The position numbers and the translations under genes were made by a program. Shown piece by piece: positions 6,347-64,000 of a stretch of 64,000 bases of DNA. Position 1 is the first letter of the stretch; each line of letters begins with the position of its first letter. Origin of the DNA: Diacronema lutheri (Eukaryota; Haptophyta; Pavlovophyceae; Pavlovales; Pavlovaceae); assembly GCA_019448385.1 (NCBI GenBank), contig JAGTXO010000009.1, positions 868,001 to 932,000 of the forward strand, read 5' to 3'. The notes beneath the pieces were generated by a model. That model ran no database searches. It was given only the letters and a program-made list of their open reading frames with translations, and had not been told where the DNA came from.

Positions 6347-6378
<32 letters not shown>

Positions 6379-16963: not shown

Positions 16964-17012
<49 letters not shown>

Positions 17013-37193: not shown

Positions 37194-37516
37194 CTGCGGC
37201 GCGCGGCGTGGCCTCGCGTGCCGTCACGAAGCCGCCTGCGCGCACTGCGGAGGCGGCGAGCGCGACGAGGGCGGGCGCGGACGAGGTGCTGAGCGGCGTC
37301 ACGTACGCGCCCTCGCTCGCCGAGCTCGACGCCGCGGCGCTGACGATGCGCGCGGCGTACCACACCGACCGCCCCTGAGACGATGCGCGGCGCCCGCGGA
37401 GGACTGGTCCGTTGGCGCGCAAACCGTGGGCGAAAGGGCGCGAAGCCAACGGCCGTCCGCGCACGTTCAAACGCGCGCATACGGGTGGCATCCTCCCACC
37501 TTCGGCGCCGCTTTCC

Positions 37517-37808
37517 AAAAGGGTGTAGGGTGTAGGGTGTAGGATGCAAAACAAGCCCTCCCCACATTTGGGCCCGACGTCATTCCTTCTTCGAAGCCGT
37601 GACGTTACTCACATACGAGTACCTTTACTTAGTGTAGGATGTATCTATTCTCTAGGTATTTGCATAGTGTAGGGTGTAGGATAAGTACGGTTACGAAAGT
37701 CCTACAGGGAGTGAAGGAATGACGCTGTGACGAAAGAAGGAATGACGTCGGGCCCAAATGTGGGGAGGGCTTGTTTTGCATCCTACACCCTACACCCTAC
37801 ACCCTTTT
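37517..37808. mobile_element. MITE-like element, copy 1 (292 bp)
   Basis: The element is bounded by AAAAGGGTGTAGGG and its reverse complement CCCTACACCCTTTT. The terminal inverted repeats extend about 75 bp inward, past GCAAAACAAGCCCTCCCCAC and GGGCCCGACGTCATTCC. It has no coding capacity and is much less GC-rich than the surroundings. It contains three tandem GTGTAGG heptamers at each end. Flanks (GGCGCCGCTTTC on the left, GAAAGCGGCGGCGCC on the right) are themselves complementary, so the exact termini and target duplication are ambiguous. Confidence 0.8.
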
Positions 37809-38067
37809 AGAAAGCGGCGGCGCCTCGGAGCATGGCGGCTCGACAGCATGGCGCCTCGACAGCATGGCGTCGTCCAGCGTGGCGTCCAGGATGGCGACTG
37901 CGCCCGGGCCGTGACGCCGCGACGTCGTTCGGCTGCGTCACGGAGGAGCGCCATCCGTGCGCCACGGAGGAGCGGCAGGACCACGACGCGGCGTGACGCT
38001 GGACGACGCCATGCTGTATAGGCGCCATGCTGTCGAGCCGCCATGCTCTGAGGCGCCGCCGCTTTTC
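37809..38067. repeat. Spacer between the two MITE-like copies, itself palindromic
   Basis: The outer 75 bp on each side (AAAGCGGCGGCGCCTCGGAG on the left and its near-complement on the right) are inverted repeats containing repeated CGACAGCATGGCG motifs. Together with the inverted elements this makes 37505-38370 one near-symmetric palindrome of about 860 bp centred near 37938. Confidence 0.75.
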
Positions 38068-38359
38068 AAAAGGGTGTAGGGTGTAGGGTGTAGGATGCAA
38101 AACAAGCCCTCCCCACATCTGGGCCCGACGTCATTCCTTCTTTCGTCACAGCGTCATTCCTTCACTCCCTGTAGGACTTTCGTAACCGTACTTATCCTAC
38201 ACCCTACACTATGCAAATACTTAGAGAATAGATACATCCTACACTAAGTAAAGGTACTCGTATGTGAGTAACGTCACGGCTTCGAAGAAGGAATGACGTC
38301 GGGCCCAAATGTGGGGAGGGCTTGTTTTGCATCCTACACCCTACACCCTACACCCTTTT
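38068..38359. mobile_element. MITE-like element, copy 2 (292 bp), inverted relative to copy 1
   Basis: Same length and termini as copy 1. The asymmetric interior appears as the reverse complement of copy 1: copy 1 reads GACGTTACTCACATACGAG where copy 2 reads CTCGTATGTGAGTAACGTC. Only a few substitutions separate them, so the duplication is recent or kept homogeneous by gene conversion. Confidence 0.8.
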
Positions 38360-38469
38360 AGAAAGCGGCGGCGCCTCAGAGCATGGCGCCCGCCCGCTCG
38401 AGCCGGACCTCCGCGCAGCCGGACTCGCCCCGCCCCGGGCTGCTCTGGCTGGGCGACGTCGTGCGCGCC

Positions 38470-41330: not shown

Positions 41331-42848
41331 GCGGCGGCGGCGCTCGCCGCGGCCGCCGTCGCCGCCGCGCGCGAATGCGCGGCGGCGGCGCGCGGTGGCG
41401 GCGGGCGCGGACGGCGCGCGCGGCGCCGGCGGCGGGCGGCGCGCTGGCGGCGGGCGCGCCGCCGGCGCGCGGTGCTGGCCAGCACCCGCCGGCGCGACGC
41501 CCGCCGCGCCGCTCGCGCCGACGCGCAGCCGTCGGGTGCTCGCCAGCACCGCGCGCCGCGCGACCGGCCCGCGTACCTGCGCGCCCTTCTAGGGCGCGCA
41601 GGGCGGCGCCAATGCGGCCGGCGCGCAGGGGCCTCACGCTGGCGCGCTGCCCGCCGCCGCGTGGGTCGCCGCTGCGCGCGTGCCGTCGGCGCTGCCGCCG
41701 CCCGGCGTCGCGCTCGCGCCGCAGCCGCAGCCGCCGCCGCCGCCGTCGCCGCCGCCTGCCGCCTGCCGGCAAGCTGGGCAAGTGCGCAGCGGCGGCGACG
41801 GCGGTGCGCGACCCGGCGAGCAGGCGGCGCGCCGCCGAGCCGGGGGCGGGCTCCGTGGGCGACGAGGCTCGCCCGCCACTCGCACTACTCGCGCGCCAAG
41901 TGCGCACAACGCGCCCCCCCCCCCCCCCCCCCACCCCACCCCCCGATGAATTTAATGCTCATACCATGGCGTCGCGCCACGGCAGTACGCCCGTGGCCCC
42001 GGCGGCCAGCCTCGCGCCGCTACGCCGTGTCGTCGCGGCCGGCGCACACAGCGAACTGTGTTTCCGCGGCACATGCCCGGCTGCTCGCGCGCTGCAAGCT
42101 TGCCGAACTGCTCGCGCTGGAATGGCGCGTTGCGGGCGTGCCCGCGCACCGCGCGTGTGCCATGCGCGTTCCGGGAGCGCCGCGCCGCGCGCCAAAGCGG
42201 CGCGCGGCGGACGTGCGGCCTCGGGCCGAAGAGGGGCCGGCGCGACCGGCCGCGAGGCGGGCGCAGACGCTCGGCGTGCCGGTCGATGCGTCGTCCAAAT
42301 CCGCGTCGGGCGGATGCGCGCCTGGGCCGGCGCTGCGTGCAGTCGGCGGGGCCCGGCCACGCGCTCGGGCGTAACGTTCGCGCCTGTTCGGCCGAGGCGC
42401 ACTCGCCGTCCCCTCGCGCCGGTAACGTGCGTGCGGGCCAGCACGCAGGCAGCGTACGATGCCACGGCAGCGGCGAGCGCGTCCCCGCCGGTGTGCCGCT
42501 CGGCGCCCCGTCACGCGCAACGTGCGCGCCGCCCGCTGCATGCGCACGCATACGCGCGCTGGCAGCGTGCGCAAAATTGCCCGGGCAAGATCGTCCCGCG
42601 CTCGCGCCGCCGACGCATCATTCCATGTGTCCGTTTCGGCATCTGCCACCATCCACCAGCCCTCGAAAGCCGGCTTGCGCGTGGGCGCCCGTCCGGTGCG
42701 AGAAGCGGCTCGCGTCCTCGCGCGGGGCGCCTCCGCGCCAGGCGCCCGGCGCGCGCTCGTCTTGCCGCGCCACCACGCTGATCTGCGCCCAACCCTCGCT
42801 CGCCAATTCCCCCGTCGTCCCTGCTGCGCAGCCCGCAACAGCGCGCGC
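41331..42848. other. Low-complexity GC-rich stretch, no recognised gene
   Basis: After the helicase remnant the sequence becomes Ala/Arg/Gly-coding in every frame, with repeated GCCGCC and GCGCGC motifs and a C19 run at 41914-41932. I see no protein-like frame until the USP start at 42849. The long frames on both strands look like composition artefacts. Confidence 0.5.
41914..41932. repeat. C homopolymer tract
   Basis: Nineteen consecutive C, followed by ACCCCACCCCCC. Confidence 0.9.
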
Positions 42849-44244
42849 ATGGCGCGTGCACGGCGCGGCGCCTTGAGCAAGTTTTACGTCGTCGGTCGGC
42901 AGCCTGTGGAAGACGCGTTTGACGGCCCGATGTGGCCGGTGAGAGTGCCCGGCGTGCCGCGTGGTGAGCGCCTGCACGGCTTGCCGGGCTCGGCGCGCGC
43001 CCAGCCAGCCTCCCTCCATCCCGCCGCAAACCGTGCGTGCGCACCCCGCACACCCGGCGCTGCGCGGCGCGGCGCAGGCGCGAAAAACGAGGGCAGCGCG
43101 TGCTACACGACCGTCCTTATGCAATCGCTCTTCGCCCTGAACATGCTCCGTGCGATGCTTCGCTCCGCTTCGCGCCGTGCCAACAGCGTCGAGAGGGCGC
43201 GTTTTCGGGACTTTGGCACGCTGATCGAGGACACCAGGGCGCCGACACGGCTGTGTCTTGTGTCCGTCATCGACGTCATCTCGGGCCGTGGCGCGCGAAG
43301 GACGCCGCAGGATGCCGCTGAGTTCTTCCGGTTGCTGCTCGGCCGAGTGCCCGGGCTCGCTGCGGCCTTTGAAGCCGACACACGCGTCGGGCCAGTGCTC
43401 GAGCAGATCGCCGTGCCTTCAGAGGCCGGCGAGGGCATCGCCGTACTCGTCAGCGTCGGCGGCGATGCGGCGCGCGCGCTTGCACACGCTCTGGGGGGCG
43501 CCGCTGGGCCGCCGCGGGATCGCCACACGAACGCGGGCCACTCGGGCGTGCTCACGCCAGCCAGCATTGCTGTCGAGGCGCCGCGCACGACGCGCGGCAA
43601 TGGCTCGCAGTGCAAGAACAACCGCGCGCTCGTGTGCGCGCCGCGGCTGCTGCTCGGCGGGCGCGACCACCTCCCCGTCGCCGGCGTGGTGCACGTGGGC
43701 GAGGGGCCGATGAGCGGGCACCTTGTCGCCATCGTGCTCCGCAACGAGGCTTGGTTTCCGTGCGACGACTACAACGTGCGGCGGCGCGCACGGTCGCTCG
43801 GTGCCGCGACCGGCGGTCGAGCGCAGCCGCGACCGCCCCGTCCTCCCGCGCGGCACGCGCGCGTGGCCTGAAAGCTCGCGCGCGCGCCTGCCGCACGCAC
43901 GCGCGTTGCCCGCGCAGATCTACAACGTGCCTGAGTCCGACGCGCTGGCGTGGGCAAGTGGTGCGAGCATGCTCGTTCACAGCCGGCTCGACGTGGAGCC
44001 GTTGGACCCGGCGCTGGGCTCAGCGTCACCGCCGTCGGCCGCATCGCCTGCGTGGCCGAGCTCGGAGCCCGACGCGCCGACCTTGCCGGCAGCCTGGCCG
44101 CGGGTGCGGCAGATGGCAGCGGTGCCAACAGATGCGACGATCGGCATCGCGGAGACGGCTGCAGACATCTCTACGGCGGCGATCGGCCCAGCTGCGTGCG
44201 AGGCCCGCCAAGTTGTCTCCGTGACGCGCGCATTGCCAACAGCG
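42849..44244 (+). CDS. USP-like deubiquitinase, 3' end not resolved
   Basis: The ATG at 42849 opens MARARRGALSKFYVVGRQPV. The catalytic cysteine box is KNEGSACYTTVLMQSLFALN. The frame continues with TPQDAAEFFRLLL, then the histidine box VVHVGEGPMSGHLVAIVLRN and WFPCDDYN. These match the ubiquitin-specific protease fold (Cys, His, Asp). After DDYN a 142-bp intron (43776-43917, GTGCGG...GCGCAG) joins to IYNVPESDALAWASGASMLV, the usual end of a USP domain. Exon 2 then runs to a GTGAGT donor at 44245, and the next exon was not found. The domain is compact, about 340 residues including a divergent N-terminus. It could be a cellular enzyme or cargo of the flanking mobile region. The ubiquitin- or SUMO-like substrate is unknown. 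Confidence 0.75.
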
Positions 44245-47253: not shown

Positions 47254-50200
47254 ATGGAGGACTCCGTGAAGGACGCTTTGCCCGGCGGGCGGGGCGGCTC
47301 GGACAGTTTCTCGCTGGCCCTCAGCACCATTCTGTCGCCGGGAGATACCCACCCCCACGTGGTCCCATCCACTTGCCTCATCGCCCTGCTGCGTTACGCG
47401 GATTTCGGCACGAGCAGGGTTAGGGTGGGCGACACGGGGTGCTCGCAGCATGCGCTCAAGGTGGCGCTGCGCAACCTGCGCAAAGCATGCGCGGATGCGG
47501 ACCGGTTTGGGCAGGTGCTCGTGGTCGTGCTACCGCTCTGCCTCCGCGCGTCCAGCGGCCTCGTGCACTGGACGGCGGCGTACCTGCTCCTCGCGCCGCC
47601 CGCGCAGCGCGGCGCGCCGCCCGGCGCCGCGCTCGCCCTGCTCGCCGATTCGCGCACCTTGGGCAACGGCGAATCGGCGTACGCCACGGCGGCCGGCGTG
47701 CTCATCAAGAAGCTTGCGCAGCGCATCGGCAGAACAGCGCCGCCCATCGATGCCTTCAAGGCGCCCCCGCAGAGTGGGGCCGCGTGTTGCTTCGCCGCGG
47801 CAACAGTCGCGGCCGAGGTCGTGGCGAGCGCATCGACGCTCTACGGCCGCCGCGCGAGTGTCCTTGTCGACATCAAGAAGGCTTTGGACGCGCGCCTCGC
47901 GCGCCTCACGACGGCCGCGTACGAGGAGACCCGCGCGCGCACGCTCCGCGCCGCCATCGGCGCTCTGCTCGGCGACCGCGCCAGGCGCTTCGGCCCGTTC
48001 ACCCGCGAGGCCGCGCGGCTCGCCGAGGCCGCGCGGCTCGCCGAGGCGTGCGATGCCAGTGTCGGCGGATCCGCGCCCGACGGGCTGCTGCAGGCCGTCG
48101 AGGCGGCGCTGCGCGCGCCCGACGACCGCATCGCACGCACGGCCGCGCTCGACGCGCTCACGGGCGCTGCAGGCCGCGCGCTGTCGACGGCGGCCAGGCC
48201 GCGCGGCGCGGCGGCGCCAAGGCCGCCGTCGCGAGCGCCACCGCCGCGTGCGCCGCAGCGGCGCGCCGCCTCGGCGTGGGGGCCCCGACCATTCAGCAGC
48301 CTCGGCGGGGGCGAGGGCGACGGGGACGATGGCGACGCCACCACCGCTGACGACGGGGAGGGCGCGGAGGACGGGGACGACGACCCCGCGGGCGCGGCGG
48401 CTGCGGCGGTGGCGACGGGCACGGCGGCGACGAGCGCGGTGGCGGCGGGCGCGGCGCCAACCTCGCCGGCGGCGGCGGACGGCGGTGGCTCGGCGCCGCT
48501 CGAACGCCGCTGCGTCTACACTGCGCCTGATGAGGGCGACGCGGACGCGCGCGTGTACGACGCCAAGGACCCCGAGCAGCTAAAAGCGGGCAGGGCGCGG
48601 CTACGGGCGAACAGCGGGCGCGCGCCCGCCGTGGTCGACACGCTTTTCGCGCACGCGACGGGCACGATCGTCACGCGGCAGCGCACGGAGGGCGTGACCG
48701 GCGCGGGCATGCACCACCTCGCCGCCCCGACGCAGGGCGCGGGGTACGGTACCGTCGTGCGGGCCGAGCTGGGCGAGCCCGGCTTCGCGGGGACGACATG
48801 GCACATGACGTCGGGCGTGGAGAACCAGCCGCGCGCGGTACGAGCGGCCGCGCGCGCGTACGCGCACGACGGCTGGGGCGGCGTGTACAATGCGCACGAG
48901 GACTTTGCCGCCTTCGAGGGCTTGCCGCGGCTCGCCGCGCCCGAATCGCTCGCGGCCATCGCCGGCGGGTCGGCGGACGCGGTGTTCTGCTGGCGGTCCG
49001 GCCGGTCCGTCATCGGCGAGGTGACGACGGTTCACTTCAATGGCGACCGCGCCGCCGCCATCGACCACGCGCGGGCGCTGCGCGTCAGGCCCGATTGGCG
49101 CTCGCAGCCCAGGATCTACGAGGCGGCGTGCGGCGCGGAGGGCACGGTGCTGCTCGTGTGGGTCGTGCCCGACCGTCACAAGAACCCGCGGCTGGACTGG
49201 GCGCCGATTCTCGTCGTGATCCACCTGCCCGCCGACCCCGACTGGCTCGCGCGCGCCACGCCGGCGATCGCGAAGGCGCGGCGCGAGGTCGAGGACGGAC
49301 GCGCGCGCGCGGAGGCGCGCGGCGTGCCGCAGCACCTCGCCTACACGCTGAGCCCACGCTTCCGAGGCACCGCGCCGCGCGGAGCCGCGCGCGTGCCGCC
49401 GCGCCTCGGCGCGAGCGACGCGCGCGAGGCGCGCGCGCTCGCGGCGCTCGAGCCGGCGCTCATGTTCGCGCCGGCCTGGCGGCGCGCGGTGCGCGCGGCG
49501 AGCCGCGCCCCCGGCAGTGGCGCCGCGGCCGTCGAGCGCGCGCTCGCGCGCCTGCACAACGCGCTCGAGCCCGATGACGAGAGCGCGCCCGAGTCGACGC
49601 GCGTCGCGCCGCTCGCCGCCGCGCTCGAGCAGTCGGCGGGCTGGCCGGCGGGCACGGCGCGCATGGCGGCAAGCGTGACCAAGGGCCCCGGCGTCGGAGA
49701 TGGCGCAGGTGGCGACGAAGTGACCAAAGTGGAGGAAACGGCGAAGACGAGCGGCGACGGCTGCACCGGCACGCCTCCTCTGCGCCCGGCCGCGCGCGCG
49801 GCCGGCGCGGCGGACGACGGAGGGGCGGCGGTCGTGGCGGGCGTCGAGGGCGAGCGCGACGCACTCGCCAAGACGGGTGCCGGCGGCTGCGACGACGACG
49901 CTCGCGAGCCGCTGTCGGCCGGCAAGCCCGGCGCACTCGCCGCCGCGGCGACCGTCGGGGGTCTCGGCGAGCTCGTCGGCAGCCTATGCGCGTGGCTGGC
50001 GCGCGGCGCGGCTGGCGGCGCCATCGCGGCCATCTCCCCCGGGACGGCCGCGCGCGGAGCAAACGGCACGCCGCAGCGCGCCGAGCCGCCGGCCGCCGGC
50101 GATCCCGTCGCTCCGCACGCGCGCGTCGCCGCTGCGGCGCCCTTGGCGGGCAGCGCGGCGGCGCCGTCGTCGGCCGCGCGCGACGCGCAGCGCGGCGTCG

Positions 50201-51273
50201 CGGGAGTCGACGCGGCCGCGCACGCGCACGCGCGCGACGGCAGGCGGGCGGCACGGCGGATGCGCGAGCACGAGGGGGCGGTGCACAGGGCCTTCCGCAT
50301 GTCCCTCTGGCGCGACGCGACGTTTGTCGAGTTCGTTGAGAAGCTGCGCCCCGACGGCGGCGCGCAGCTGCTCGCGCGCGAGCCCACGCGGCGCGCGGCG
50401 GCGGTGCTGTGCGAGCTCGCGCGCGGCCGCGACGGCGCGAGCGGCGCGGCCGGGCTGCTGCACGAGATGAGAGCCGCCGATGCGCGCGCGCGCGAGGCCG
50501 CCAAAGCGGCGGAGGCAGCGCGGCCTGCGCACGGGACGCTGCGCATCGTGGCAACCGTGGCGCTGGGCGGTGCGGTCTTCGCCGGCATGTCAGCGCTGGT
50601 CGTTGCTTGCGCGGCGCGCACGGCGACCGGTGCGCTTTTTGGGGCCCGCCGCCCGCGGGCGGCCGCGCGCGGAGCCGACGACGCGCTCGGCACGCTGCAG
50701 CGCGCCGAGCCGCCGCCCGCCGACAAGGGCAAGCGCAGGCGCGCCAGAGCCAACGACGACCCCGTCGACGCGGCGCGCAAGGCCGTGGGCAAGGCGGAGG
50801 GCAACTGCCGCAAGGCAGCCCGCCGGCTGCACCTCGCTGCACTGGGCGAGGAGGAGGCGCAGCAGCGCGTGCTCGACGCCGAGGCGGCGGAGCAGCTGGC
50901 GCGCTCGCGCGAGCCGGCCGGCGGCTGGGTAGGCAGCGCGCGCGCGCGCGCGCGCGCGCGCCCCGCCGCGCGCGCGCCCGTCGATTGGCGTGCGCGCAGC
51001 GCAGAACGGCGCGCCAGCTCCGTCACCTGCGCGCCGCCGCGCCCGTGCCCCTCGCGCGCAGGGGCGCCCTGCGGACCTGCGGCTGCAACAGGCGCACTTT
51101 GGCATGCGCGAAGATGCCGACGCGGAAGTGCGCCGCGCGCACGAGGCGCTGCGCCGGGCGAGACAGGGTGTGGCGTGCGCCAAGGCCAGCGTGCGGCAGA
51201 TGGAGGCGGCGTTGCTCAACGCGACGCGCTGCGCCACCGCGGTGCTCGCGCCGCGTGGCGTGCCGGAGGGTGA
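47254..51273 (+). CDS. Large protein with N-terminal Ulp1/adenain-like cysteine protease signature
   Basis: The ATG at 47254 opens a 1,339-codon frame. Residues 60-190 have the order of a CE-clan (Ulp1/adenain) protease: a hydrophobic strand (GQVLVVVLPLCL), GLVHWTAAYLLL with H105, LLADSRTL with D132, then APPQSGAACCFAA with Q173 and C178/C179. Such enzymes cleave SUMO/Nedd8-type tails or viral polyproteins. Residues 310-420 are a low-complexity acidic/alanine linker. Residues 430-700 form an unassigned globular region (TTWHMTSGVENQPRAVRAAA, AVFCWRSGRSVIGEVTTVHF, ILVVIHLPADPDWLARA). One membrane helix lies near 1095-1120 (IVATVALGGAVFAGMSALVV), followed by a coiled-coil-like region. Past about codon 1230 the frame becomes composition-like, while the +1 frame becomes protein-like. 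The natural product therefore probably continues into the frame ending at 64000. Confidence 0.6.
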   Translation: MEDSVKDALPGGRGGSDSFSLALSTILSPGDTHPHVVPSTCLIALLRYADFGTSRVRVGDTGCSQHALKVALRNLRKACADADRFGQVLVVVLPLCLRASSGLVHWTAAYLLLAPPAQRGAPPGAALALLADSRTLGNGESAYATAAGVLIKKLAQRIGRTAPPIDAFKAPPQSGAACCFAAATVAAEVVASASTLYGRRASVLVDIKKALDARLARLTTAAYEETRARTLRAAIGALLGDRARRFGPFTREAARLAEAARLAEACDASVGGSAPDGLLQAVEAALRAPDDRIARTAALDALTGAAGRALSTAARPRGAAAPRPPSRAPPPRAPQRRAASAWGPRPFSSLGGGEGDGDDGDATTADDGEGAEDGDDDPAGAAAAAVATGTAATSAVAAGAAPTSPAAADGGGSAPLERRCVYTAPDEGDADARVYDAKDPEQLKAGRARLRANSGRAPAVVDTLFAHATGTIVTRQRTEGVTGAGMHHLAAPTQGAGYGTVVRAELGEPGFAGTTWHMTSGVENQPRAVRAAARAYAHDGWGGVYNAHEDFAAFEGLPRLAAPESLAAIAGGSADAVFCWRSGRSVIGEVTTVHFNGDRAAAIDHARALRVRPDWRSQPRIYEAACGAEGTVLLVWVVPDRHKNPRLDWAPILVVIHLPADPDWLARATPAIAKARREVEDGRARAEARGVPQHLAYTLSPRFRGTAPRGAARVPPRLGASDAREARALAALEPALMFAPAWRRAVRAASRAPGSGAAAVERALARLHNALEPDDESAPESTRVAPLAAALEQSAGWPAGTARMAASVTKGPGVGDGAGGDEVTKVEETAKTSGDGCTGTPPLRPAARAAGAADDGGAAVVAGVEGERDALAKTGAGGCDDDAREPLSAGKPGALAAAATVGGLGELVGSLCAWLARGAAGGAIAAISPGTAARGANGTPQRAEPPAAGDPVAPHARVAAAAPLAGSAAAPSSAARDAQRGVAGVDAAAHAHARDGRRAARRMREHEGAVHRAFRMSLWRDATFVEFVEKLRPDGGAQLLAREPTRRAAAVLCELARGRDGASGAAGLLHEMRAADARAREAAKAAEAARPAHGTLRIVATVALGGAVFAGMSALVVACAARTATGALFGARRPRAAARGADDALGTLQRAEPPPADKGKRRRARANDDPVDAARKAVGKAEGNCRKAARRLHLAALGEEEAQQRVLDAEAAEQLARSREPAGGWVGSARARARARPAARAPVDWRARSAERRASSVTCAPPRPCPSRAGAPCGPAAATGALWHARRCRRGSAPRARGAAPGETGCGVRQGQRAADGGGVAQRDALRHRGARAAWRAGG

Positions 51274-54200
51274 CGAGCAGGCCGCGGCGAGAGAGCAGGC
51301 GGCGCTGGACCGGGAGGCGCCGCCGGCCGCGCAACGCGCGGCGCCGACGGCGCGCTCGCCCTCGGAGCCGCCGTCCGAGTGGGGCCCGCCAGCGGTCGGC
51401 CGGCGCCCGACGCCGCGTGCACTGTCGCACGCCGCGGGTCGCGGGGACGACAACCCGTTTGCGCCGCTCGCAACCGTCAGCGGCGATTGGTCGCCCACGC
51501 CGAGCTCGCGCTCGCCGTCCTCGCCGCCGCGGCAGCCGCCGTCCGACCGCCGCAGCGCGCAGCGTCGCAGCGCGCGCGCGCGGCCGCCGAGGCCGACCGT
51601 TTCGCCCGAGGACGCGCTCGCAGCCGAGCGCCAGGCGCGCGCGCTGTCGGAGCAGGCGGAGCAGAGGCGCGCCAAAAAGGCCGCCGCCAAGGCCGCGCGC
51701 CGCGCCGCGCGCGCCGCCGACAAGCGGACGGCGCGCGTCGTCCACGCGTGCGTAAGCGCCGCCTTGCGGCGCGTCTGCACGAGCGTCGCCACGGGCACGC
51801 CGCTCGCCGTGCTCCGCGAGCGCGCCGAGAGGCCGCGCGCGCCGAAGGCCGCGCCCGCGCCACCACGCCGCGCAGCGGACGGCGGCCGCGCGCTCCGCCA
51901 CGCGCGCCGTGCGGCCGCCGCGGCGGCGGAGCGCGAGGCGGCGGTGGCGGCCGACGCCGACGAGCGGTTCGAGCAGCAGCCCTCCGCCGCCCGGTTCGAC
52001 GGCGGCGATGGCGGCGGAGGCGGCCACGTCGAGGCGAGCGCGCGACCGCGCACCGGCGAGGCCGGCGAGGCTGGCGCGCACGGCGCGCCTGGCGCAGCGG
52101 GGACCCCGGCGGCGTCGCTCGCGTCGCGCAGCCCGTGTGATGCGCGCCGCACGGCACGCCTCCCGCACGCACGCGCCGCAGCCACCTGCGCACGCAACGG
52201 CGGCTGGGGTGGCAACGTCGGCGGCGACGTGTGCGGCGGTTGTTTCGGCGGCGGCGGCGTCCGTCGCGACGCCTGCGGCGGCGGCGACGCCACCTGCGGC
52301 TGCGGCGATGGCGGCGTCGGTGCTGGCGCTGGCGAGGCCCCTGCACACGGTGCGCCGGCGCGCGCGACGGCGTCGCGCTTGCTGCGCTTGCTCGGCGCGC
52401 CACGCGCCGTGCTCGGTGCGATGGCGCACGCCGCGGCCGTGTTGGCGCGCGGCGTGGCCGCAGCCGTCGCTGGCGTGCGCGCCGCCGCGCGCGCCGAGCG
52501 GCGCGCGCGCCGCCGAGCGCCTTGTGCGCGCCGCACGGCTGCGCGGCGCGCTCGCGGCCCGCCGATGCGCGACGTCGACGGCGCCCTGCGGCCCTCACCG
52601 TCTTGGCCGCGCACACGCCTCGTCTGCGGCCGGCGCCTCGCGCCTCTGCGCCGCGCGGGCGCGCGCCCGCCGCCCGCACACGCCGCGCCGAGTTCCCGCG
52701 CGCGCGCTGCGCAACCCGACAGCGACGCGCCGGCGTGCGCGCCGCGGCGCTCGGCGCCTGTCGGTGCGCCGCCGCGCGCGCGCGGCCTCTGCGCGGCGCG
52801 CGCACGGCGCGTCCTCGACGTCGCCGGCCGCGCGGCGCGGAGCGCGCGCCTCGGCGCGCGCATCACGCGCCAGCGCACGCCGGGCCCGTCATCGGAGCCC
52901 TGCACGGCCGAGAGGGGCGACGGCGCGGGCGCCGGCGGCATCGGCGCGGCGGCGCCTGGCGCGGCGACGATGCGCGCCACCGGCGCGCGCGCAGCGCGCG
53001 CTGCGGCGGCGGCGGTCGGTGGCGCCTCGCGTCTCGCGCGCCGCGCGATGGCAAGCGCCGCCGCCGCTGCCACCTCCATCGCCGGCGCTACCGCCTCCAC
53101 CGTCGCCGCCGCCGCCGTTGCCATCGGCGCGGCCGTCACGTCACCGGTGTTCGCCGCGGCGCGCGGCATGGCGGCCGCATGCGTCGCTGCCTGCGCCCGC
53201 CCCACCGCCGCGCAGGCGGCCGCGTCGCGCGCGCTCGGCGCGCTCTTCGTGCTCGTCGACGCGGCCGACGCGGCGGGCGACAGCGACGCCGCGCTCGGCG
53301 CGCTCGCGGCCGCGGTCGACGCGACGGAGCTGCGCCCGCCGCCGGCCTTTTGGCGCGCGGGCCGCGCCGCGGCGTACGCACCGCGTCCGCCGCCCCTCAA
53401 CTCGGCGCGGCCGCGCTACAACCGGCGCGCGCGCGCACCTAGCCCTCCCGTCGCGGCCGCGCGGCGCAATCTCGCGCGCGCGGTGCGCGAGCTCACGCGC
53501 GCCGCGCGCGCTGAGCGCGAGCGCGCGCCGGCGCCGCGCGGCGCGCGCGGCGGCGTGCTCCACGCGCTGCGCGCGTCGCTCCCCGTGCACGCGCGCGCCG
53601 CGCTCGGCACGGACGCGGAGCTGCGCGCGGACATCGCCGCGTTCGCGCGCGCGCGCCGCGAGCTGCACAGCCTCACCGACGCCGAGGTGGCGGCGCTCGC
53701 GCGCCCGGACGGGCCGCCGCTGCCCGTGCGGCTCGCGTGCACGGCGGTCGCGCGCGCGCGCGGCGTGACCGTGCTGCTCGACATCGTGCCGCGCGGCGGC
53801 GGCGCGCCCGAGCGGCTCGTGTGCCGCGCCCGTCGCCGCGGCGCCGCCACGCGCACGCCACGGCCGACAGCCGCCGTTATCGCGCGCGCGCCTTGCATAG
53901 CGGCGCGCGTTGGCCACACTGAGCCGGCGCGCGCGTGCGCGGGCGGATCGATCGGGGTCGCGCGCCTCCGTTCAGCGCGCCGCCGCTCTTGGCGTGGGGC
54001 GCGGCTCGACGTGCACACCCGCGAGCGGCTGGCCACACCGGTGCCAGGCCACGTCGTGGCCTGCGCCGCCGCCTCGGCCATCGGCGCGTGCGTCGCTCGC
54101 GCGCGGCTTGGGCTTGCACGGCTGGCGCGCGCGTGGCCCTGCGCCTCCGCTCCACTGGCCGCTGCTGCTGTCGCCTTCGCGCCTGCCGCCGACGGTGTTT

Positions 54201-55509
54201 TCTGCGCCCCGCTGGGCGCTCCTGCATCCGCCTTCGCGCCTGCCGCCGACGGTGTTTTCCCCGCCGCACTAGCCGCTGCTGCATCCGCCTTCGCGCCTGC
54301 CGCCGATTTTCCCGCCCCACTAGTTGCTCCTGCATTCGCCTCCGCGCCTGCCACCGACGGCGTTTTCCCCGCCCCACTAGCCGCTGCCGCTGCCGCGTCC
54401 GCGCCTGCCGCCGCGGGCGCGTCTTCCGCCCCACCAGCCATCGCCGCCGCGCCCGCCGCCAACGCGCGCACCGCCAACGTGCCCGTTGCCAACGAGGCTA
54501 CCGCCACCGAACCAGCCGCCCTTGAGCTTCCCCTCCAACCCGCCAACTCGGCGCTGCTTGCGTGGGCGGGCGACGCGGCTGCGCGCCGGCTGGCCGCCGC
54601 CGCCGCGAGCGCCGGCCTCCCGCAGGCAGAGGTGGAGCGCATCGCCAGCGGCGACATGCTCGCCTCAACCGTCGACGCGTGCTGCGAGGTCGTGCTGCGC
54701 GTGCACGGGCAGGCCGGCGGCGGGCATGTCTGCCACGTGCCGCTCGCCGCGCAACCCGCGGTGTTTCAGGACGACGCCGAGCGCGCCGCGCTGCTGCACC
54801 GCCTGCGCAGCGAGGCGACAACGCAGGCTGTCATCGGCGTGTGGAGCCCGTCGGACGAGCGCGGCGGCGCGGGCGGTGACGACGGCGCGCAGCTCGCCTC
54901 CGGCCATTTCACCGCGTTGCGCCTTGTGCGCGTCGCGCGCGCGGGCGAGCATCGCTACGACGCGGTGCTCGTCGACACGCTCGCGTCGCCCTGCAGGCAG
55001 GCGCTCATGCTCGCCAAGGCGATAACTGCCACGCTGCACGCGGCGGGTCTCGACATTTCGCGCGTGCGCCGCGCGCTGCTGCTCAACGAGGCGGCGCAGC
55101 GTGGCGCGACGTGCGGCCTCGCGATAGTGGGCGCGCTCAACGACGCGCTCGCCGCGGCGGGCTGCTCGTCCGCGCCGCGCACGTTCAGCGTGGCGGACAT
55201 GTACGCTGTCGGCGAGCGCCTCCGCGTCGCGCTGACCGGCGCGGCCGGCGATCGTGCGCCGGGCGGCGTCTGCGCGGTCACGAGCGCGGTGCGCGGCGGG
55301 GGCAGCCCCGATGGCGCCGAAACGCCGCCGCAGACGCGCGGCGCCAAGGCCGCCGCTGGCGTCACCGCCGCCGCCACCGCCGCCGCCACGCCGCCGCCGC
55401 CCGCGCTGGGCGCCGCCGCCGCCGCCACCGCCGCCGCCGCCGCTGCTGCCGCCGCCGTGGCCGCGCCGCCACCGCCGCCACCGCCGCCGCCGGCCGGCGA
55501 CGCGGGCGA

Positions 55510-55560
<51 letters not shown>

Positions 55561-58500
55561 GCGCACGTTCTTGAAGCTCGCGCCCAGGGCGCGCGCGGCC
55601 GCCTCGGCGCGTGAGGCGTTGCGCGCCGCGTGTGCGCGCGCGGACGCGGCGGCGTCGTCACACGCGTCGGCGCCGCACGCGCCCGCCGGTGCGCGCCGCC
55701 GGCGGCGCGCGGGCGCAGGCGAGCTGGCGCTCGCGGCTGCGCGCGCGCTCGCCTCGACGGAGCACGGCGATTTGACGGACGACGCGCTCGAGGCCGCCGT
55801 CGAGCAGGAGCTGGGCGACGAGCGCGGCCAACTGCTGCTGTGCACGCGGGGCGCAGCGGCGCAAAGGCCCGCGCTTTGCCGGCTCCTGAAGCACGCGTGC
55901 GCGTCGGCGCGCGCGGCGAAGCGCGCGCAATTCACGGTGTTCGTCGTGCGCGCGGCCACGCGCGGCGAGCGGGGGGGCGCCGCCGCGACGCGCGTGGACT
56001 CGGTGGTCGAGCTGTCGTGCGCGCTGCACGAGAAGGCGGGCGCGCTCGGCGGCCTCCAGCGCGTCTGTGTGCGTGGCTTCGCCCTCGAGCGCCGCCGGAC
56101 ACTCGACGCTGGCGCCGAGGCCGGCGCGTCCGCCATCGGCCAGGACGAGCAGGTCGAGGCAGAGGCGGGCGAGGCGTGCGTCGCCGGCGTGACGATGGCC
56201 AAGCAGCTGCGTCAGTTTGCCGAGCAAGCTGCCCGCGACGACGTGCTCTTCCGCGTCGCCGTGTCCGAGGCCGACGCCCACGCCCGGCTGGCGCGCGTTG
56301 CGGGTGACGATGTCGGCGCGTACAGCGTCGTGCTCGCAGTCGCCGGGCTCGTCTGGCTGGCCAAGGCCGACGAGGTTGCGCCGGCGGCCGCCCAGCCCGC
56401 CGCCGCGCCGCCCGCCGCCTCGCCTGCTGCCGCCACGTCCGCCGACGCCGAGCGCGACGCCTCGCCTTCCGACCGCCTGCGCGCGCTGACGCTCGCCGTG
56501 CGAGTCGCGCTCGCGCGCGGCGTGCTGCGCCACCTCCTCGCCGACGCGTCGCCGGGCGCGTCCGCGACCGCTGGCGGTAGTTGCGCGACGCCCGTCGACG
56601 CGGCCGCGTCCGACGCCGCGCCGCCCGCCACGGGCGTCGTGACGAGTGGCGTTGCGGCGGGCGCTGTGGCGGCCGCACCGGCTGCTGCGGGCGGGGCGAC
56701 GGCGGGTGCATCGCCCATCACGCGGCCGGCGAAGCGCGCGCGGCGCACGCTCACCGCCGCTCCAGCCGCCTCGGCCGTTGCGGCCGCTGGAGGCGCACGC
56801 GCTGGCGCACGCGGCGCGGCCGGCGCGCCTCGCGCGCGCGCCGCGCGCGCGCCGGCCGAGTACGTCTGGCTTGCCATCGCGCGCCGGATGCTGGCGGCGC
56901 GACACGCGGCGGCCGCGGGCGGCGACTTTGTCGCGTCGTGCGTCGCCGCGATGCAGGCCGAGTACGGCGACGGCTGTGCCGTCGTCGTCGGCGACGCGCC
57001 TGGTGACGCCTTGGTCGAGGCTGCGGCGGCGGCGCTGCTCGAGGGCAAGCACGCGGCGGTGAGCCTCGGCTGCGTCGACCGGCCGGCGGTGCTCGTCGTG
57101 CAGCGCGCCGTGGACGCGCCCACGTCGCGCGTGCACGGGTGGTGCGCGCACGCGGCGGGCGCCGCCGAGTTTGACGAGGGCGCCGCGCACGGCGTGTTCA
57201 ACGCGATCGTCGAGCGCGCGTGGGCGCTGCGTCCGGACCCGGCCGACGGCAGCCCGCCGCCCACGCGCACGTGGGAGGTCGAGCGCATCGCTGACGACGC
57301 GCCCGACCAGGCGGGCGTGGCCGCGCTGCGCGTGCTCTACGCGCTCGTCGCGGCGCACGGCCGCTACCGCTCGGCCGCCGCGCTCTTTGGCGCGCTCGCG
57401 CAGCTGCACGCGCCCGACGCCGCCGGCGCGCGCGCGGAGGTCGTCGCGGCGGCGTGCGCGGAGCCGCCCGGCGCGCGGCCGGGCGCCGCGCCGGCGGCCG
57501 CGCGGGACGACGCGAGGGAGCGCGCATGGGAGGGCGCTCGGATCGCCGCGCTCGCCGTCGGCGCGGACGCTGCGCGCAGGCGTGTCGCGCCCGTGCGCGC
57601 GCTCGTCGACGCGCTCGGCACGCCACCGACCTCGGCGATCACGGGCGGGCCGGCGGTGCGGCTCGCGGGCGCGGGCGACGGCGGCCACGGTGCACGGTGG
57701 GTGGGCGGGCAGGCGGCGACGCCCGCCGAGCAGCTGCCGAGGGAGCTGCTGCGCGCCTACCACGAGGCGGTGCTGTGCGTCACGCCCGGCAGCCTCCAGC
57801 TCGACTCGGCGGCGCTCGACGCGGTCACGCGGCCGCGCGAAAACGACACGCTGGAAGGCCTCCTCGCGCGCGTCAGCTGGCAGTGCGGCGCGAGGGCGAG
57901 CACGTGCGCCATGCTCGCCACGTTTTCCGAGCAGGCGGGCACCGGCTCGCGCGTCGCGCTCAAGGCCCTCCGCACGAGCTCCGACCTGGCCGGGCTGACG
58001 GCGGCTGCGGTCGGGCAGCAGGCGCCGCAGACGCCGCCGCCGCCGCTGCTCGTGATGCTCGGCCGCTGCCCCAGCCCGCTCGTCGGCGGCGGCCTCTTCC
58101 CGCCCGACCGCGCGACGGGCGAGCCGGCGGTGCACGCGGCGACGTCCGAGCTCGCCGTCGAGCTGCTGCGCGACGCGCGCGCGCTGGCCGGCACGGACGG
58201 GCGGCTCGTCGTGCTGTGCCTCGAGGCGTCCAACCCGCTCTGGTTCTGCCCCAAGGTGCGCGAGCTCGAGCTGCCGCGGACGCGGTCGGACGGCGTGCGC
58301 GCGTCCGGCTGCACCTGCCCTGCGACGTGCAGCGATGCGCGCGGCGCGGCGGGTGGCGCTGCCCGCGGCGCATCGACGCGGCCGGCGGCGCGCGCGATCA
58401 ACAAGGCGGTGCTCGACCACTTCGTCGCGCTTTTCGGCCGCGAGGGCTTCGCGACCTTTGAGTTTGCGGGCGGCGGCGAGGCGAGCTGGCTGTGCGACAG

Positions 58501-61500
58501 CGCGGCCGGCAAGACGACCGTCGCGGCGTGCGCGTCGCTCCCGCCGCGCATGGGCGATGGGCAGCTGGCCATCCGGCGGCACACGCTCGGCACGGGCGCC
58601 GACGCGCCGGCGCACGCCGTCGTCTCGCTCCGCGTCGCGCACGTGAGCCACGCCATCCGCCGCGCGGCGGACGACGGCGGCGCGCGCGCCGAGCGGATGG
58701 CGCGCGCCGCGCGCGCGTTTTGCGATGTGGCGGCCGCGCTGCGCGTCGACGCGATCCTGGCGGAGGTGCCCGAGGACCGCCCGACGGGCACGCCCTTCCT
58801 TGGCGGGCTGCTCGAGTTTTGGAACAAACGCCACGGGAGCTCGACGGCGCCAGCCACGCTCGCGCTCGGAGACGTGCGCGAGGTGGCCAAGCGGACGGCC
58901 GACGCAGCGGCCGGCCGAGCGGACGAGGTCCCTGCGGCTGGCCGTCCGCAGGTCGCGGCGCGCGCGTGCGCTGGCGCGATTGGCGGCGGCGCGGGCGCGG
59001 CGGGCGCCTCGGACGCTGCGCCCCGTGCACTGGCGGGCGCGTCGGGTGCGCGCACGGACGGCGGCCCTGCCGACGCACCGCGCCAGCTGGAGAGCCGCTA
59101 CGGCGAGGCGAGCAAGCTCGACCTACCCCAAGATTCCACTACGGGCTGCGTCCTCGACGCTCGCGAGGCCCAGGACCGCGCGCGCGTGCCTGCTGCGCCC
59201 GACGGCACAGCGCTGCGCCGCGTGCTCGACGCCGTCGGCGCGGGCGCGCCCGCGCAGCGCAGCCCGCGCTGGCACGACGAGCGATGGGAGGAGGTCACGG
59301 GCAGCAAGGTTGGCGACGTCGTGAACGACAACGCCGGCGTCGCGCACGAGACGCTCACCGACGAGTACGTGCACCGGCGGCGGCGCGAGGTGCGGACCAA
59401 GGCGACGACCGCGGGCATCCTCGGCGAGGCCGTCGCGCTGCGCAAGCTGGCGGCCGCGTACGGCATCACCGTCGTGTGCAACCTGCCGATGGTGCGTGCG
59501 GACCCGCACGACAAGAGCGCGCCGTTCGCCTTCTCGCCGGACGGGCTCGCCATCCTCCCCGAAGACAACGAGCAGGTCCTCGTCGAGGTGAAGACGCTCA
59601 CCAAGGCGGACGCCAAGGCGCACGAGGACGGGCCGCCGCAGCCGCACCGCGATCAGCTGCAGCTCGGCATGCACGTCCTCGGCGTGCGCAAAGCGCTCTA
59701 CGTGCAGTACCTCAGGCACGAGGACCGGATCGTCGTGCACGTCGTGACGCGCGGCGCCGGCTGGCTTGCATTCGCGCAGCCGAGGGTGCAGGCCTTCTGG
59801 GCGCGCGTCGTCGAGCGGCGCGCGCGGCTCGAGCGCGCGCGCGCCGACCACCCGGCTGCGAGCCGGCGGCACCGGCGGCAGCAGACGCCGGCCGGGCCGC
59901 CGCTCGTGCTCGCGCTGGACGGGCGCATCCCCGCCGCGCGCGCCGCCGCGCTGCACGCCGTCGCGCACGGCACCGCGAGCGCGGCGGCGGTGGCGGCGAC
60001 GGCGGCGACGGGCGACGCGACGGCGTTGCAAGACGCGATCGCGGCGCTGCGCGCGCCCGTCGGCAATGCGGCGATCGACAGCGCAGCGCGTGCGGAGCGC
60101 GCGGCCGTCGAGCGGGCGATCGCGTACCTCGGGCAGCCGGCAGGCGACGCCGCCGCCCGCGGCACGGCCGAGGCGGCCGAGGAGGAGAGGACGGTCGACG
60201 CCGACATCTGCGCGTTGCTGCACCAGCTCGGCGCGAGCGTGGCGCACGTGCACGTCGAGGACGCGGATTGCGTCACGCGTGAGCACTGGGGCGGGGCGGT
60301 GCTCGCTGCAGCGGGCGACCCGTCGAGCGCCCCCGCCATTTCGAGCGTCATCGTCGCGCACATCGTGCGGCTCGCCGGCTTTGGCGTCGAGCTCCCGCAG
60401 TCGATTCGCGTCGCCCCCAGCACGGCCGACTGGCACGAGGGCTGGCTCGACGTGCAGTGCGTGCTGCTGCGCACGCGCCGGCGCGGGCGGCGCGACGACG
60501 ACTTTGTGGCCGTCGTCAGGCGCGGTGGGCGCTGGTTTGCGTGCGAGCCCGGCCGCGCGCGGCGGCTGCAGTGGCGGTCGGTCCTGCGCCGCGCGCGCGG
60601 CGGCGTCGACGGGACCGGCGAGGAGGCGTTCGCGGTCGTCTACGTGCGGCGCGGCGACGCGGCCGGCGACGCGGCTGGCGACGCGCAGGCCGAACGGGCG
60701 CGCGGCGGGCGCGCGCGCAGGCGCACGCGCGGCGGCACGCGCAAGCGCAAGCGCGGCGCCTCCGCCGGGCTCGAGGCGGCCGCGCCCGCCGGCGCGCCGG
60801 CTGCCGCGCCCGCCGGCGCGCCGGCGGGCGCTGCTCACCGCCCGCCCGCCATGCGCGCGACGGTCGCCGCGCGCACCACGCGCTCTGTGACCGACGCGCG
60901 GCACTCGGCGCCTGCCGCCACGGTTGCACCTGTCTTCGACTGGCGCGCCGGCCGCCCGCCCCCCGCCGCTCGAGCCCGCCACCCGCGGCCGCGTGGGCGC
61001 GCGCCACCGGGCAAGGCCTGGGACAGCGTCTCGGGTGCGTGGGCGGACAAGCCGACTGGTGCTGCCGTCGCCGGCGCGCCGCCGCCGCTGCCGCCCGCCG
61101 CCGCGCCGCCGCCCACCGCCGCGCCGCCGCCCGCCGCCGCGCCGCCGCCCGCCGTCGCGCCGCCGCCCGCCGCCGCGCCGCCGCCGCCGCCGCCACCGGC
61201 GGCGCTCGGCCGCCGGCAGCACGTCGGCGCGGGCGGCAGCGCGGCGGGCCGGCGGCTCGCGGCCATCGCACGGCGGCAGCGCGGCGTGCGCGCGCCGCCG
61301 CCCGCCGCGCGCTTCCTCGCCACGCTGCCGCCACCGCCACGCGACGGCCTCGCGCGCACGAGCAAGCAGGCGCGCGCGAGGCGCAACGCGGACGGACGGC
61401 CGGCGCACGCGCGCGCGGCCAACGCGCGCGCCTTCTACCGCGGCGTGGAGCTCGGCGTGCACGCGACGCGCGCCATCGTCGACGCGCGCCACGCCGACCT

Positions 61501-64000
61501 GCCGCAGGCCGTCTTCGTGGCGGAGGCGCGGGCGATCGTCGCGCGCTCCGCCGGCGGCGGCGCGCTGCTCGCGCCGGACGACGTGCGCGACCTGTGCGAC
61601 GCGCAGACGGACGCCGATCGCGCTGCGATCTGGGCGTCGGTGGGCGCGCACGAGGCGACGCGCATCTTCGCGCTCGTCACGCGCAACGCGAGCTTGGCGG
61701 GCGCGGCGCTGCTCGTGCTGCACACGCCGGCGGGCGCGCCGGCGCGCGCGCTCGGGCTCGTGGCGACGCGCTCGCGCGCGCCGTCGACGGGCGCGCCGCG
61801 CGACGCGCACAGGGCGCTGGTGCAGCGGTTGGACGTGCTGATGGACGCGATCGTCGCGGCGCGAGGCGCGTCGCCGCTCGAGCTCGAGCTCGCGCTCGCG
61901 CCCGAGCCGCAGAGCGCGTGCAACGCGCGTGCGGCCGCGCTGCTCTGCCTGCAGGCCGTCGCGGACGCGAGCGGCCGTCCCGCCGCTGAGGACGCGCTGG
62001 CCGCGCTCGACGACGCGCGCGGCATCGACCGGCACTGCCACGCCGTCCGGCAGCAGATCGAGGCGAAGCTCGCGTGGCGGCGCGCCGACGGCGCCGTCGG
62101 CGTTGACGGCGCCGACGGCGCGCCCGCGCTCGCGCCTGCCGCCGCACCGCCGGCGTGCGCGCCGGCGCACGCTGCCGGCGAGGCGGCGGTCGACCAGGCG
62201 ATCGTCACGCGGGTGCGCGACGCGCTGCGCGCGTGGGCGACGACTGGCACCGCGCCCAGCGCGGCGGTGCTCGACGACGCCTGCGCCGCGTACACGGCGC
62301 GCGCACGCGCGCGCAAGGACGCGCGCACGGCGCTGGGCCCGACGCGCGCGGCCGAGCTGCTCGCCGCGGCCGCGCGCGGCGGAGCCGACGGGGCGGATGC
62401 CGCGCGCGCGCTGCTCGGCGGCACGCCGCGCCTGCTCGTCGTGCTCCTCTGCGTGCCCGTCGCCGCGCCGTCCGGCGAGCCGCCGCGCCCGGTCGGGCTG
62501 CTCGTCGCCGACCGGCCGACGGACGACTCGCGCCCGGCCGCGCTCGTGCGCTACGACTTTGCGCCGCTCGACGCGGACGTGGCCGTCGCGGTCGGCGCGC
62601 ATGCCGTCGCGCTGGCCAGTGCGATCTGGCCGCTGCTCGCGGCCGAGGGGGAGCCGCGGCCATCGCCCGTCGTGCGCTCGCAGCCGCGCGGCGGCGACGA
62701 TGGCGCGCGTGCGCTCGCAACGTTCGCGTGCCTCGACGCGCTGATGACCGCCAGCGTCGGCGCGCACGGCCTCGCGGGCGGCGCGGGCATGCTGCCCGCG
62801 CTGGTCGCGCGAGGCGCCGCGGCCGCCCAGCGCGAGCGGCAGCTGCGCGCGGCCGCCGAGAGGCTGGGCGGCACGGTCGCTGGGTGGCCGGACACGGGCG
62901 CGAGCGCGGCGGGCGCGAGCGTCGACGAGGAGGCGCGCACGTACGAGGTCGAGGCGGTCGTCGACGAGCGCCGCAAGGCGGGCAAGAAGGTGACGTTCCA
63001 GTTCCGGATCAGGTGGCGGGGCTACGACGAGAGCGCCGACACGTGGGAGCCTGAGGCCAACGTGAGCAGCGACCTCGTCGCCCAGTTCCGCAAGACGCGC
63101 GACGAGCAGAAGCGGCGCGCGGGCGTATCGGGCAGCGGCAGCGGCGGCGCGGGCGCGGCGTCGGCATTGGCGTCGGCGCCGCTTCGCGCGCACGGCGAGT
63201 CGGGCGCCGCGGGCAAGCGCGCCGCGGCGGGTGCCGCCGCGAGCGCGCGCGACGCCGCGGGCGCGCGCGCGCCGAGCGTTCTCCGCGCGCGCGGCGTCGA
63301 GCGCGCGCGCGTGGACGAGCCCGCTGCGCCGAGCGCGCGCGCCGCCGGCGGCGCGACGGCGCGCACGCGCGGCAGCGTGCTCCCGGGCTTCGTGGTCAAG
63401 CGCTCGACGCTCAACGCGGGGCCGCAGGCGGTGACGGCGCAGCCCGGTGCGCGGAAGGAGCTGCGGCGCATCGCGGCGGCCGTGCACAGGCTCACGACAC
63501 AGGCGTACCGCGTCATCAACAAGGTGGTGCGCGACGAGGCTGCGGTGGCGAGCGCGCAGGCCGTCGGCGCGGCGTCGGGCGGCCCGTCGACCAGCGTGCA
63601 CACGTCGACCACGATGGACAAGGGAACCGTCCGTGCGATCTTCTCGGCCATCGGCTGGCACAAGGACGAGAGCACGTACGGTGCAGCGCCCCGAGGCAAG
63701 CCCGCCGAGCAAGCCGCCGCGCAGACCAAGGCGGCGACGGCGCGCGCCGTCGGCGAGATGGCCGAGGGCGTCCAGCCCGTCTGCGCGGTGGGCCTCACGG
63801 AGATCCTCGAGGCGGAGGCGACGCAGGTGTCCACCGCGTGCCTGATGCATCCATCGCGCGTCGTGAACGGGCTGCTCCGCGACGTCGTCCGCGCGGCAGT
63901 CGAGCGCGACGAGGCGCTCGTCGCGCTGCCCGAGATGCAGCGAAACGCGCGCGTGCGCGAGCTGTGCGAGCGGCTGCTGCGCGGCGACGTGGAGGGCGCG
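50933..64000 (+). CDS. Giant open frame (over 4,350 codons, no stop before window end): CE-type protease signature, YqaJ nuclease, chromodomain
   Basis: This frame (codons starting at 50933 + 3n) has no stop to 64000. It is either a continuation of the preceding frame through the GC tract at 50936-50960 or starts at the ATG at 51104 (MREDADAEVRRAHEALRRAR, a coiled coil). Residue numbers count from 50933. Near 1325-1395: GHFTALRLVR (H1325), VLVDTLASP (D1348), EAAQRGATCGLAI (Q1389, C1394), a second CE-clan-like triad. Near 2776-2950 is a YqaJ-type PD-(D/E)xK nuclease: SPRWHDERWEEVTGSKVGDV, GILGEAVALRKLA, FSPDGLAIL, VLVEVKTLT, RDQLQLGMHVLG. Near 4003-4045 is a chromodomain: TYEVEAVVDERRK, FRIRWRGYDESADTWEPEAN. 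Alanine- and proline-rich linkers separate them. YqaJ nucleases process DNA ends, and chromodomains bind methylated histone tails. A polyprotein of a large mobile or viral element is my inference. Confidence 0.6.
50936..50960. repeat. (GC)n tract at the junction of the two giant frames
   Basis: About 25 bp of alternating GC. Upstream, the first frame is protein-like; downstream, the +1 frame is. The downstream frame carries a TAG at 50930-50932, so the switch must occur after it. This could be a programmed frameshift, a true indel or an assembly error in the dinucleotide repeat. Confidence 0.75.
54171..54420 (+). repeat. Imperfect 57-bp coding repeat in the giant frame
   Basis: About four units of 51-57 bp share GCCTGCCGCCGACGGTGTTT and encode variants of FAPAADGVFPAPLAAAASA. 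This forms an Ala/Pro-rich linker just before the second protease-like domain. Units differ more than in the RFT1 minisatellite, so the array is older. Confidence 0.8.

Follow-up and report, generated by a model that had tools for sequence, protein, structure and literature searches.

The giant coding frames at the right-hand end of the analysed DNA are the main gene of a 31-kb transposon family that has many copies in the haptophyte Diacronema lutheri. One frame of this gene holds both a chromodomain and the N-terminal part of a Fanzor nuclease, and a single product spanning a lambda-type exonuclease domain, the chromodomain and the Fanzor is likely on sequence grounds. By motif and Pfam match, we identify the whole unit as a Fanzor-bearing mobile element. 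The analysed stretch of 64,000 nucleotides (the window, C36:868001-932000) was examined together with the genome, which comprises 43,492,796 bases in 103 contigs. A sequence-only reading of the window had proposed one giant polyprotein with internal proteases, a YqaJ nuclease and a chromodomain, belonging to a large mobile or viral element. That interpretation is partly supported by the present results. The limits of the element, its copy number and the Fanzor were missed at that stage because they lie mostly outside the window or needed other copies to be recognised. The features are listed below in window numbering, which is continued past the window end.

35,505-66,507 (C36:903505-934507), plus strand: whole mobile element, 31,003 bp, delimited by alignment to the copy on contig C71
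37503-38373, no strand: nested fold-back with 378-nt inverted arms, 98% complementary, and 115 nt between them
38945-41277, plus strand: PIF1 helicase gene (Pfam PIF1, E 3.6e-14 and 1.5e-24; Pif1_2B, 5.4e-13)
42459-43868, plus strand: ubiquitin-specific-protease-like (USP-like) frame of the UCH family (Pfam UCH, E 3.6e-08, over the cut-off)
47254-50928, plus strand: first coding block, 1,225 codons up to a putative splice site (open frame, codon-phase GC)
50929-51091, plus strand: putative intron joining the two frames (GT-AG and phase fit, one of many candidates)
51092-64249, plus strand: second coding block, 4,386 codons (stop-free frame, kept in the copies on C71 and C29)
59246-59821, plus strand: YqaJ/RecE/lambda-exonuclease-type domain (PHROG 434, RecE-like, E 3.3e-16; P0002 2753-2944)
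62942-63094, plus strand: chromodomain (Pfam Chromo, E 4.9e-12; PDB 2dnt, E 7.8e-9, the best of the PDB chromodomains)
63377-64249, plus strand: putative Fanzor N-terminal part, in frame with the chromodomain (start set by eye)
64378-66102, plus strand: Fanzor C-terminal part with RuvC and C4 zinc ribbon (Pfam, motif)

The alignment with the C71 copy runs from 35505 to 66507 in two blocks (99.7 and 99.1% identity), and the element extends 2,507 bases beyond the window end. It has sharp ends, with the termini (C/G)TATATAGGGCG at the left and CATCTATAC at the right; among the best matches fetched, TATATAGGGCG was found at the junction in 20 of 20 left-end loci and CATCTATAC in 20 of 20 right-end loci. 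The terminus of the copy at C71:151 has one base changed. A search with the terminal motif gave 29 distinct left flanks, in which TATATA is preceded by C (19), G (8) or T (2). Matching to one host repeat ceases at position 399 of 400, a single base short of TATATA, in 42 of 45 cases, and the variable left base is thus either the element's own or added. A constant TATA target duplication was considered and is disfavoured, since the base preceding TATA is not host sequence at the host repeat tested. The two target flanks had at most 3 bp in common in 21 of 22 pairs and 13 bp in the other; the 23 flank pairs collected were assigned by position rather than by read-through of the element, and the piece for C4:656 had no left terminus. 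The left flanks were AT-rich, with A or T at 129 of 232 bases at -9 to -2 versus 112 of 319 at -20 to -10, in 29 flanks, six of which share one host repeat and cannot be counted as independent. By eye, 6 of the first 20 left ends fetched (L012, L013, L017, L020, L026 and L030) adjoin a short host repeat ending in GTTAGTA, and the element may prefer the edge or the AT-rich end of this repeat.

Near-identical sequence was found in at least 40 places for the left 1.1 kb and in at least 40 for the right 1.0 kb, and the Fanzor half in at least 86 genomic places. Among 150 listed matches to the PIF1 gene, at least 120, counted by hand and including the window copy, had the same score and match length. 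All these numbers are lower bounds on copies that were not read end to end. In 20 copies whose ends were placed by coordinates, the length was 30.5-32.2 kb in 13, 21.5-21.6 kb in five and 26.3-26.5 kb in two. As a rough estimate, 120 copies of ~28 kb would account for ~8% of the genome. The published assembly of strain NIVA-4/92 has 103 contigs, 43,502,671 bp and 73.25% GC, with 22.9% repeats that are mainly LTRs and LINEs among the annotated kinds, according to excerpts of its description (PMC8379373); words beginning with "transpos" are absent from the available portion of its main text. The element breaks this assembly: contigs C91, C80, C12, C92, C29, C90, C32, C72 and C49, chosen because coordinates pointed to element ends there, all start at or within ~46 bases of an element end (9/9). 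A telomeric location, which the contig ends had brought to mind, was rejected because the contig starts read are element ends without telomere repeats.

Frame 1 spans 47254-51273 (1,339 codons), and frame 2 runs from 50990 to the window end at 64000 (4,337 codons); the latter is stop-free over 13,485 nt, with its first stop at 64418. These are the two giant frames of the sequence-only reading, and their positions are confirmed. In 300 locally resampled sequences, the longest ORF in six frames had a median of 3,024 nt and a maximum of 5,943 nt, a range far exceeded by frame 2 and within which the longest minus-strand frame (5,334 nt) falls. GC by codon phase fits both frames. The indels between the C36 and C71 copies that lie inside the 13-kb frame (27 nt, 24 nt, a cluster of net +33 nt, and 18 nt) are all multiples of 3, and those not divisible by 3 (7, 8 and 2 nt) are all outside coding sequence. 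The giant frames are real. The open frame measures 4,518 codons in the C71 copy and 4,082 codons in a short form of the element on C29. In all three copies read (window, C71 and C29), the exonuclease domain, the chromodomain and the Fanzor start follow one another in one stop-free frame.

The two frames overlap in different phases, so that a single product requires an intron or a frameshift near 50.9-51.1 kb. The earlier proposal holds as regards a giant coding frame; the putative intron 50929-51091, predicted from splice signals and phase and one of many candidates, would join both frames. At the other end, a GT-AG intron at 64250-64377, one of several candidates, would lead the 13-kb frame into 64378-66102. 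The exact joined reading across it (PLRTHN followed by VPRNVRL) is contained in an annotated D. lutheri protein from another locus, P0004 (KFE25_006464), and a 2-nt indel between copies falls within it. With both introns removed, the predicted product would have 6,185 aa.

The Pfam YqaJ model scores 15.9 bits in the window copy and 28.2 bits in the C71 copy (cut-off 22), and is thus over its cut-off in the latter only; TIGR03033 matches the same region with E 7.8e-6 and 26.1 bits, under its cut-off of 68. By eye, the domain has the G-E, SPDG, EVK and Q motifs. Together with the RecE-like PHROG match, these data bear out the YqaJ nuclease proposed earlier, a family match to the lambda exonuclease/YqaJ/RecE group. 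A search with the whole of P0002 found no homologue of this region at E<=0.01 among 1,464 candidates scored. In phages, lambda exonuclease works with an annealing protein; unlike in such systems, no annealing protein was recognised in the element. The chromodomain, also noted earlier, is well supported by its Pfam and PDB matches, and it has aromatic residues (Y, W and Y) at all three methyl-lysine cage positions of HP1. The chromodomain integrases of chromovirus LTR retrotransposons are presumed to steer these elements to marked chromatin. The present element resembles chromoviruses in having a chromodomain in a mobile-element protein, but its neighbour here is an RNA-guided nuclease, and no reverse transcriptase or integrase was recognised in the element.

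The frame in the right flank of the window matches Pfam PF07282 (Cas12f1-like TNB) with 28.2 bits (cut-off 26.3), and there are weaker matches to NCBIfam guided_TnpB (13.6 bits versus a cut-off of 100) and to PDB Cas12f1 (E 0.22). From its motifs alone, we take the protein to belong to group Fanzor1. The Fanzor/TnpB motif D-X(125,275)-[TS]-[TS]-X-X-[C4 zinc finger]-X(5,50)-RD, as given in the excerpted text of Bao and Jurka (PMC3627910), is found on the spliced reading, with 185 residues from D to TS, four Cys after TS and then RD. Two homologous proteins were found at E<=0.01 among 8,000 candidates scored, a near-identical ENA protein (P0003, a lone Fanzor half from a 2,435-base contig) and P0004; none was found among phage records. 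Narrow-pattern scans of IMG/VR with the Fanzor half, the YqaJ region, and the N-terminal part of the PIF1 gene and its family confirmed no relative. P0004 combines SAM domains with a Fanzor fragment of 106 aa (94% identical), as might be expected if a host gene had captured part of the element.

The sequence-only reading had also seen CE-clan proteases inside the giant frame and had suggested self-cleavage. The H-D-Q-C patterns behind this proposal are readable by eye, but no cysteine-protease family, including the C48 (Ulp1) peptidase profile, matched at E<=10 in eight slices of the two frames, and no PDB match to the first frame was obtained at E<=1; internal proteases and self-cleavage are thus without sequence support. 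A relationship between the two H-D-Q-C regions was rejected, the best match (E 0.077 over 17 residues) being taken as chance. The first coding block had no family match at E<=1 in Pfam, NCBIfam, PHROG or PDB profiles. In the sequence to the right, where the earlier reading had advised looking for a stop and for viral or replicative genes, the stop and the element end were found, and the Pfam scan of one flank frame recognised no PolB, capsid, packaging ATPase or integrase.

Upstream, the PIF1 domains are split over two frames by Pfam and over three by eye, and this frame pattern is identical in two other copies (99.0 and 98.9% identical). The PIF1 gene is probably either defective or expressed by some unusual route. 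It has a conserved N-terminal part of ~255 aa that is single-strand-binding-like (by eye only); the best PDB profile match to this N-terminal family had E 0.41, nothing meaningful. Four stand-alone proteins of 254-310 aa (P0006-P0009, from lgn, jgi and ena) are 32-46% identical to this part and have a conserved GDGNF...GP.D motif, with no Pfam family over the cut-off. The fold-back at 37503-38373, which has internal direct copies 551 nt apart, is probably a small insert inside the element. A search of window 35505-64000 against Rfam at gathering thresholds gave no match. In the neighbouring host sequence, a 4,082-codon frame with an NHL repeat (window 5686-17934, minus strand; Pfam E 1.7e-7) is probably a host gene, and to the right of the element (L002 2877-8337) a mitochondrial-kinase-like frame, a UCH37-like frame and ribosomal protein L24 were recognised by eye only.

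In the 21.6-kb short form read on C29, the beginning of the PIF1 gene and the region 44.3-54.5 kb are missing, and ~2.4 kb of different sequence is present. At C29:778643-780954, ~770 codons of a different N-terminal sequence lie ahead of the shared giant frame. Between the long and short forms, 81 of 134 changes in the shared giant frame are non-synonymous, against a fraction of 0.719 expected without selection (z about -2.9, equal rates assumed). The corresponding numbers are 50 of 68 for PIF1 (expected 0.72-0.73) and 94 of 126 for the USP-like frame (expected 0.72). By these counts, the shared giant frame appears to be under weak purifying selection, and the changes in the PIF1 gene and in the USP-like frame are in line with neutrality. 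Within 56.5-58.5 kb, 12 of 17 changes are non-synonymous, that is, no constraint is seen there. Between two long copies, the second block has 44 non-synonymous changes of 71 (0.715 expected) and the first block five of five. The differences between the C36 and C71 copies concentrate in window 51830-58000, and 38.4-50.2 kb is almost identical; this uneven divergence suggests exchange between copies.

With a Fanzor at the end of the frame, the likely meaning of the gene shifts from DNA replication, as proposed earlier, towards targeted cutting and repair. We lean towards a reading in which Fanzor cutting and exonuclease-driven recombination are steered by the chromodomain. Known Fanzor and TnpB elements produce their guide RNA from the right end, with the flank as its target. 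Here, 405 nt separate the end of the Fanzor gene from the right end of the element, and this end would yield a guide RNA with the adjoining host sequence as its guide. The chromodomain would keep the nuclease at chromatin with methylated histones, the Fanzor would cut matching DNA, such as an allele without the element, and the exonuclease would resect the ends, after which copying from the element-bearing chromosome would restore or spread the element. PIF1 helicases drive break-induced replication, and such a helicase, the element's own in ancestors or the host's, may aid this copying. Several points count against this reading. Homing by recombination requires flank homology, and the target flanks have none; the PIF1 gene seems defective; some parts show little or no selection; and the Fanzor may be made alone from an inner ATG, which lowers our confidence. 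Since no transposase was recognised in the element frames scanned, cutting and copying may also be a side activity. These parts do not account for how the element first enters unrelated AT-rich sites, which suggests an unrecognised transposase or helper.

This last point leads to a second explanation, which we consider possible but would not bet on, that a new type of transposase or recombinase lies concealed in the first block or in the opening half of the second, with the Fanzor, the exonuclease and the chromodomain as helpers in targeting and retention. Long stretches of both frames match no family, both ends of the insertion are exact, with a single variable left base that is not host sequence at the repeat tested, and the AT-rich left flanks would suit such an enzyme. 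However, neither the first block nor the beginning of the second is present in the short form, of which there are nevertheless several copies of one length, and a transposase encoded in those parts would therefore have to act in trans.

Somewhat more doubtful is that the long frame comprises separate genes, in which translation of the Fanzor, and perhaps of further parts, begins at separate starts. In-frame ATGs occur throughout the 13-kb frame, and those at 63614, 63758, 63845, 63935 and 64043 lie inside the putative Fanzor N-terminal part; the annotated P0004 begins at the ATG matching 64043, and P0003 is a Fanzor half on its own, although its contig is short. Against this stand 13.5 kb without a stop in one phase, the frame-keeping indels, and the lack of any ATG between the chromodomain and the Fanzor start placed by eye; frame residues 3901 to 4174 contain no Met, and the next one is at 63614. 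With no ATG in that interval and several further in, a fusion is likely but not proven.

A giant Helitron-like (Helitron2) rolling-circle element, with the Fanzor as a passenger, the PIF1 gene as a RepHel remnant and the Rep supplied by another element, seems unlikely to us, although the nearest described case is the Fanzor1 Helitron2 set of Chlamydomonas, as far as the excerpts of PMC3627910 show. According to the same excerpts, those Fanzor1-bearing elements have no duplication or duplications of about 7-19 bp, with which our flank pairs may be compared, and CRe-1, CRe-2 and CRe-3 likewise reside in an alga, have a Fanzor gene with introns and an AT- or T-rich left flank, and have many copies without target-site duplication and occasional long ones. 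The present element also has a PIF1 helicase, both its ends form hairpins when folded (without a shuffle control), and the lack of target-site duplication agrees with a Helitron while not being diagnostic alone. Unlike CRe-1/2/3 in the available text, however, it has no Rep found, has ends that do not match, is about 31 kb long and carries further genes. No HUH Rep family, whether or not joined to PIF1, was found in the scanned frames, which have scattered HxH strings only; the single Helitron_like_N match genome-wide is elsewhere, at C63:35738 (one candidate passed the first look); and the ends read neither 5'-TC nor CTRR-3' and show no asymmetric terminal inverted repeats by eye. An endogenous virus or a Maverick/Polinton-type element is highly improbable: the size would fit, and the single-strand-binding-like N-terminal family and the exonuclease might suit DNA viruses, but a Pfam scan of 11 element frames in the window and one flank frame recognised no capsid, DNA polymerase, packaging ATPase or retroviral-type integrase, there is no regular target duplication, and the narrow-pattern scans of IMG/VR confirmed no relative. 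The earlier reading had likewise seen no capsid, polymerase or integrase in its part of the sequence. Fungal Starships are also very large elements and are classed by their tyrosine recombinase, in the accessible text on them; the general Pfam scan of these 12 frames gave no DUF3435 match.

Compared with known Fanzors (Saito et al. 2023, PMC10432273), the present one shares the D, TS, C4 zinc ribbon and RD, spaced as in the defining motif. Like them, it lies near the right end of a mobile element and its gene has an intron; unlike them, it stands in frame behind a chromodomain and a lambda-type exonuclease, in a 31-kb element with no known transposase alongside. Among open-licence PMC papers, to the extent of their accessible text, we found no case of a chromodomain or a YqaJ nuclease fused to a Fanzor, and nothing on a giant transposon with a Fanzor or on a Fanzor in Diacronema; PMC6338049, considered as a precedent for a Fanzor-chromodomain protein, is unrelated in its available part. 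Within those papers, the exonuclease-chromodomain-Fanzor combination has no earlier description that we could find.

The favoured reading of Fanzor cutting with chromodomain-steered recombination has a bolder form, which we regard as quite improbable. The polyprotein would co-locate a chromatin reader, an RNA-guided nuclease and a resecting exonuclease, cut element-free chromosomes at the site named by the flank, and have all 31 kb copied in by break-induced replication, making it a self-sufficient RNA-guided copying element. If true, the element would act as a gene drive that occurs naturally in an alga and is targeted by chromatin, and it would represent a class of transposons that lack a classical transposase. 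The role that a Fanzor, the eukaryotic counterpart of TnpB and an RNA-guided nuclease carried by eukaryotic transposons, plays for its transposon has been little tested. The present family has kept a single open frame for its exonuclease, chromodomain and Fanzor, which makes it testable whether a Fanzor acts together with resection and chromatin targeting, and its many copies in a cultured marine microalga with a compact 43-Mb genome offer a practical system for doing so.
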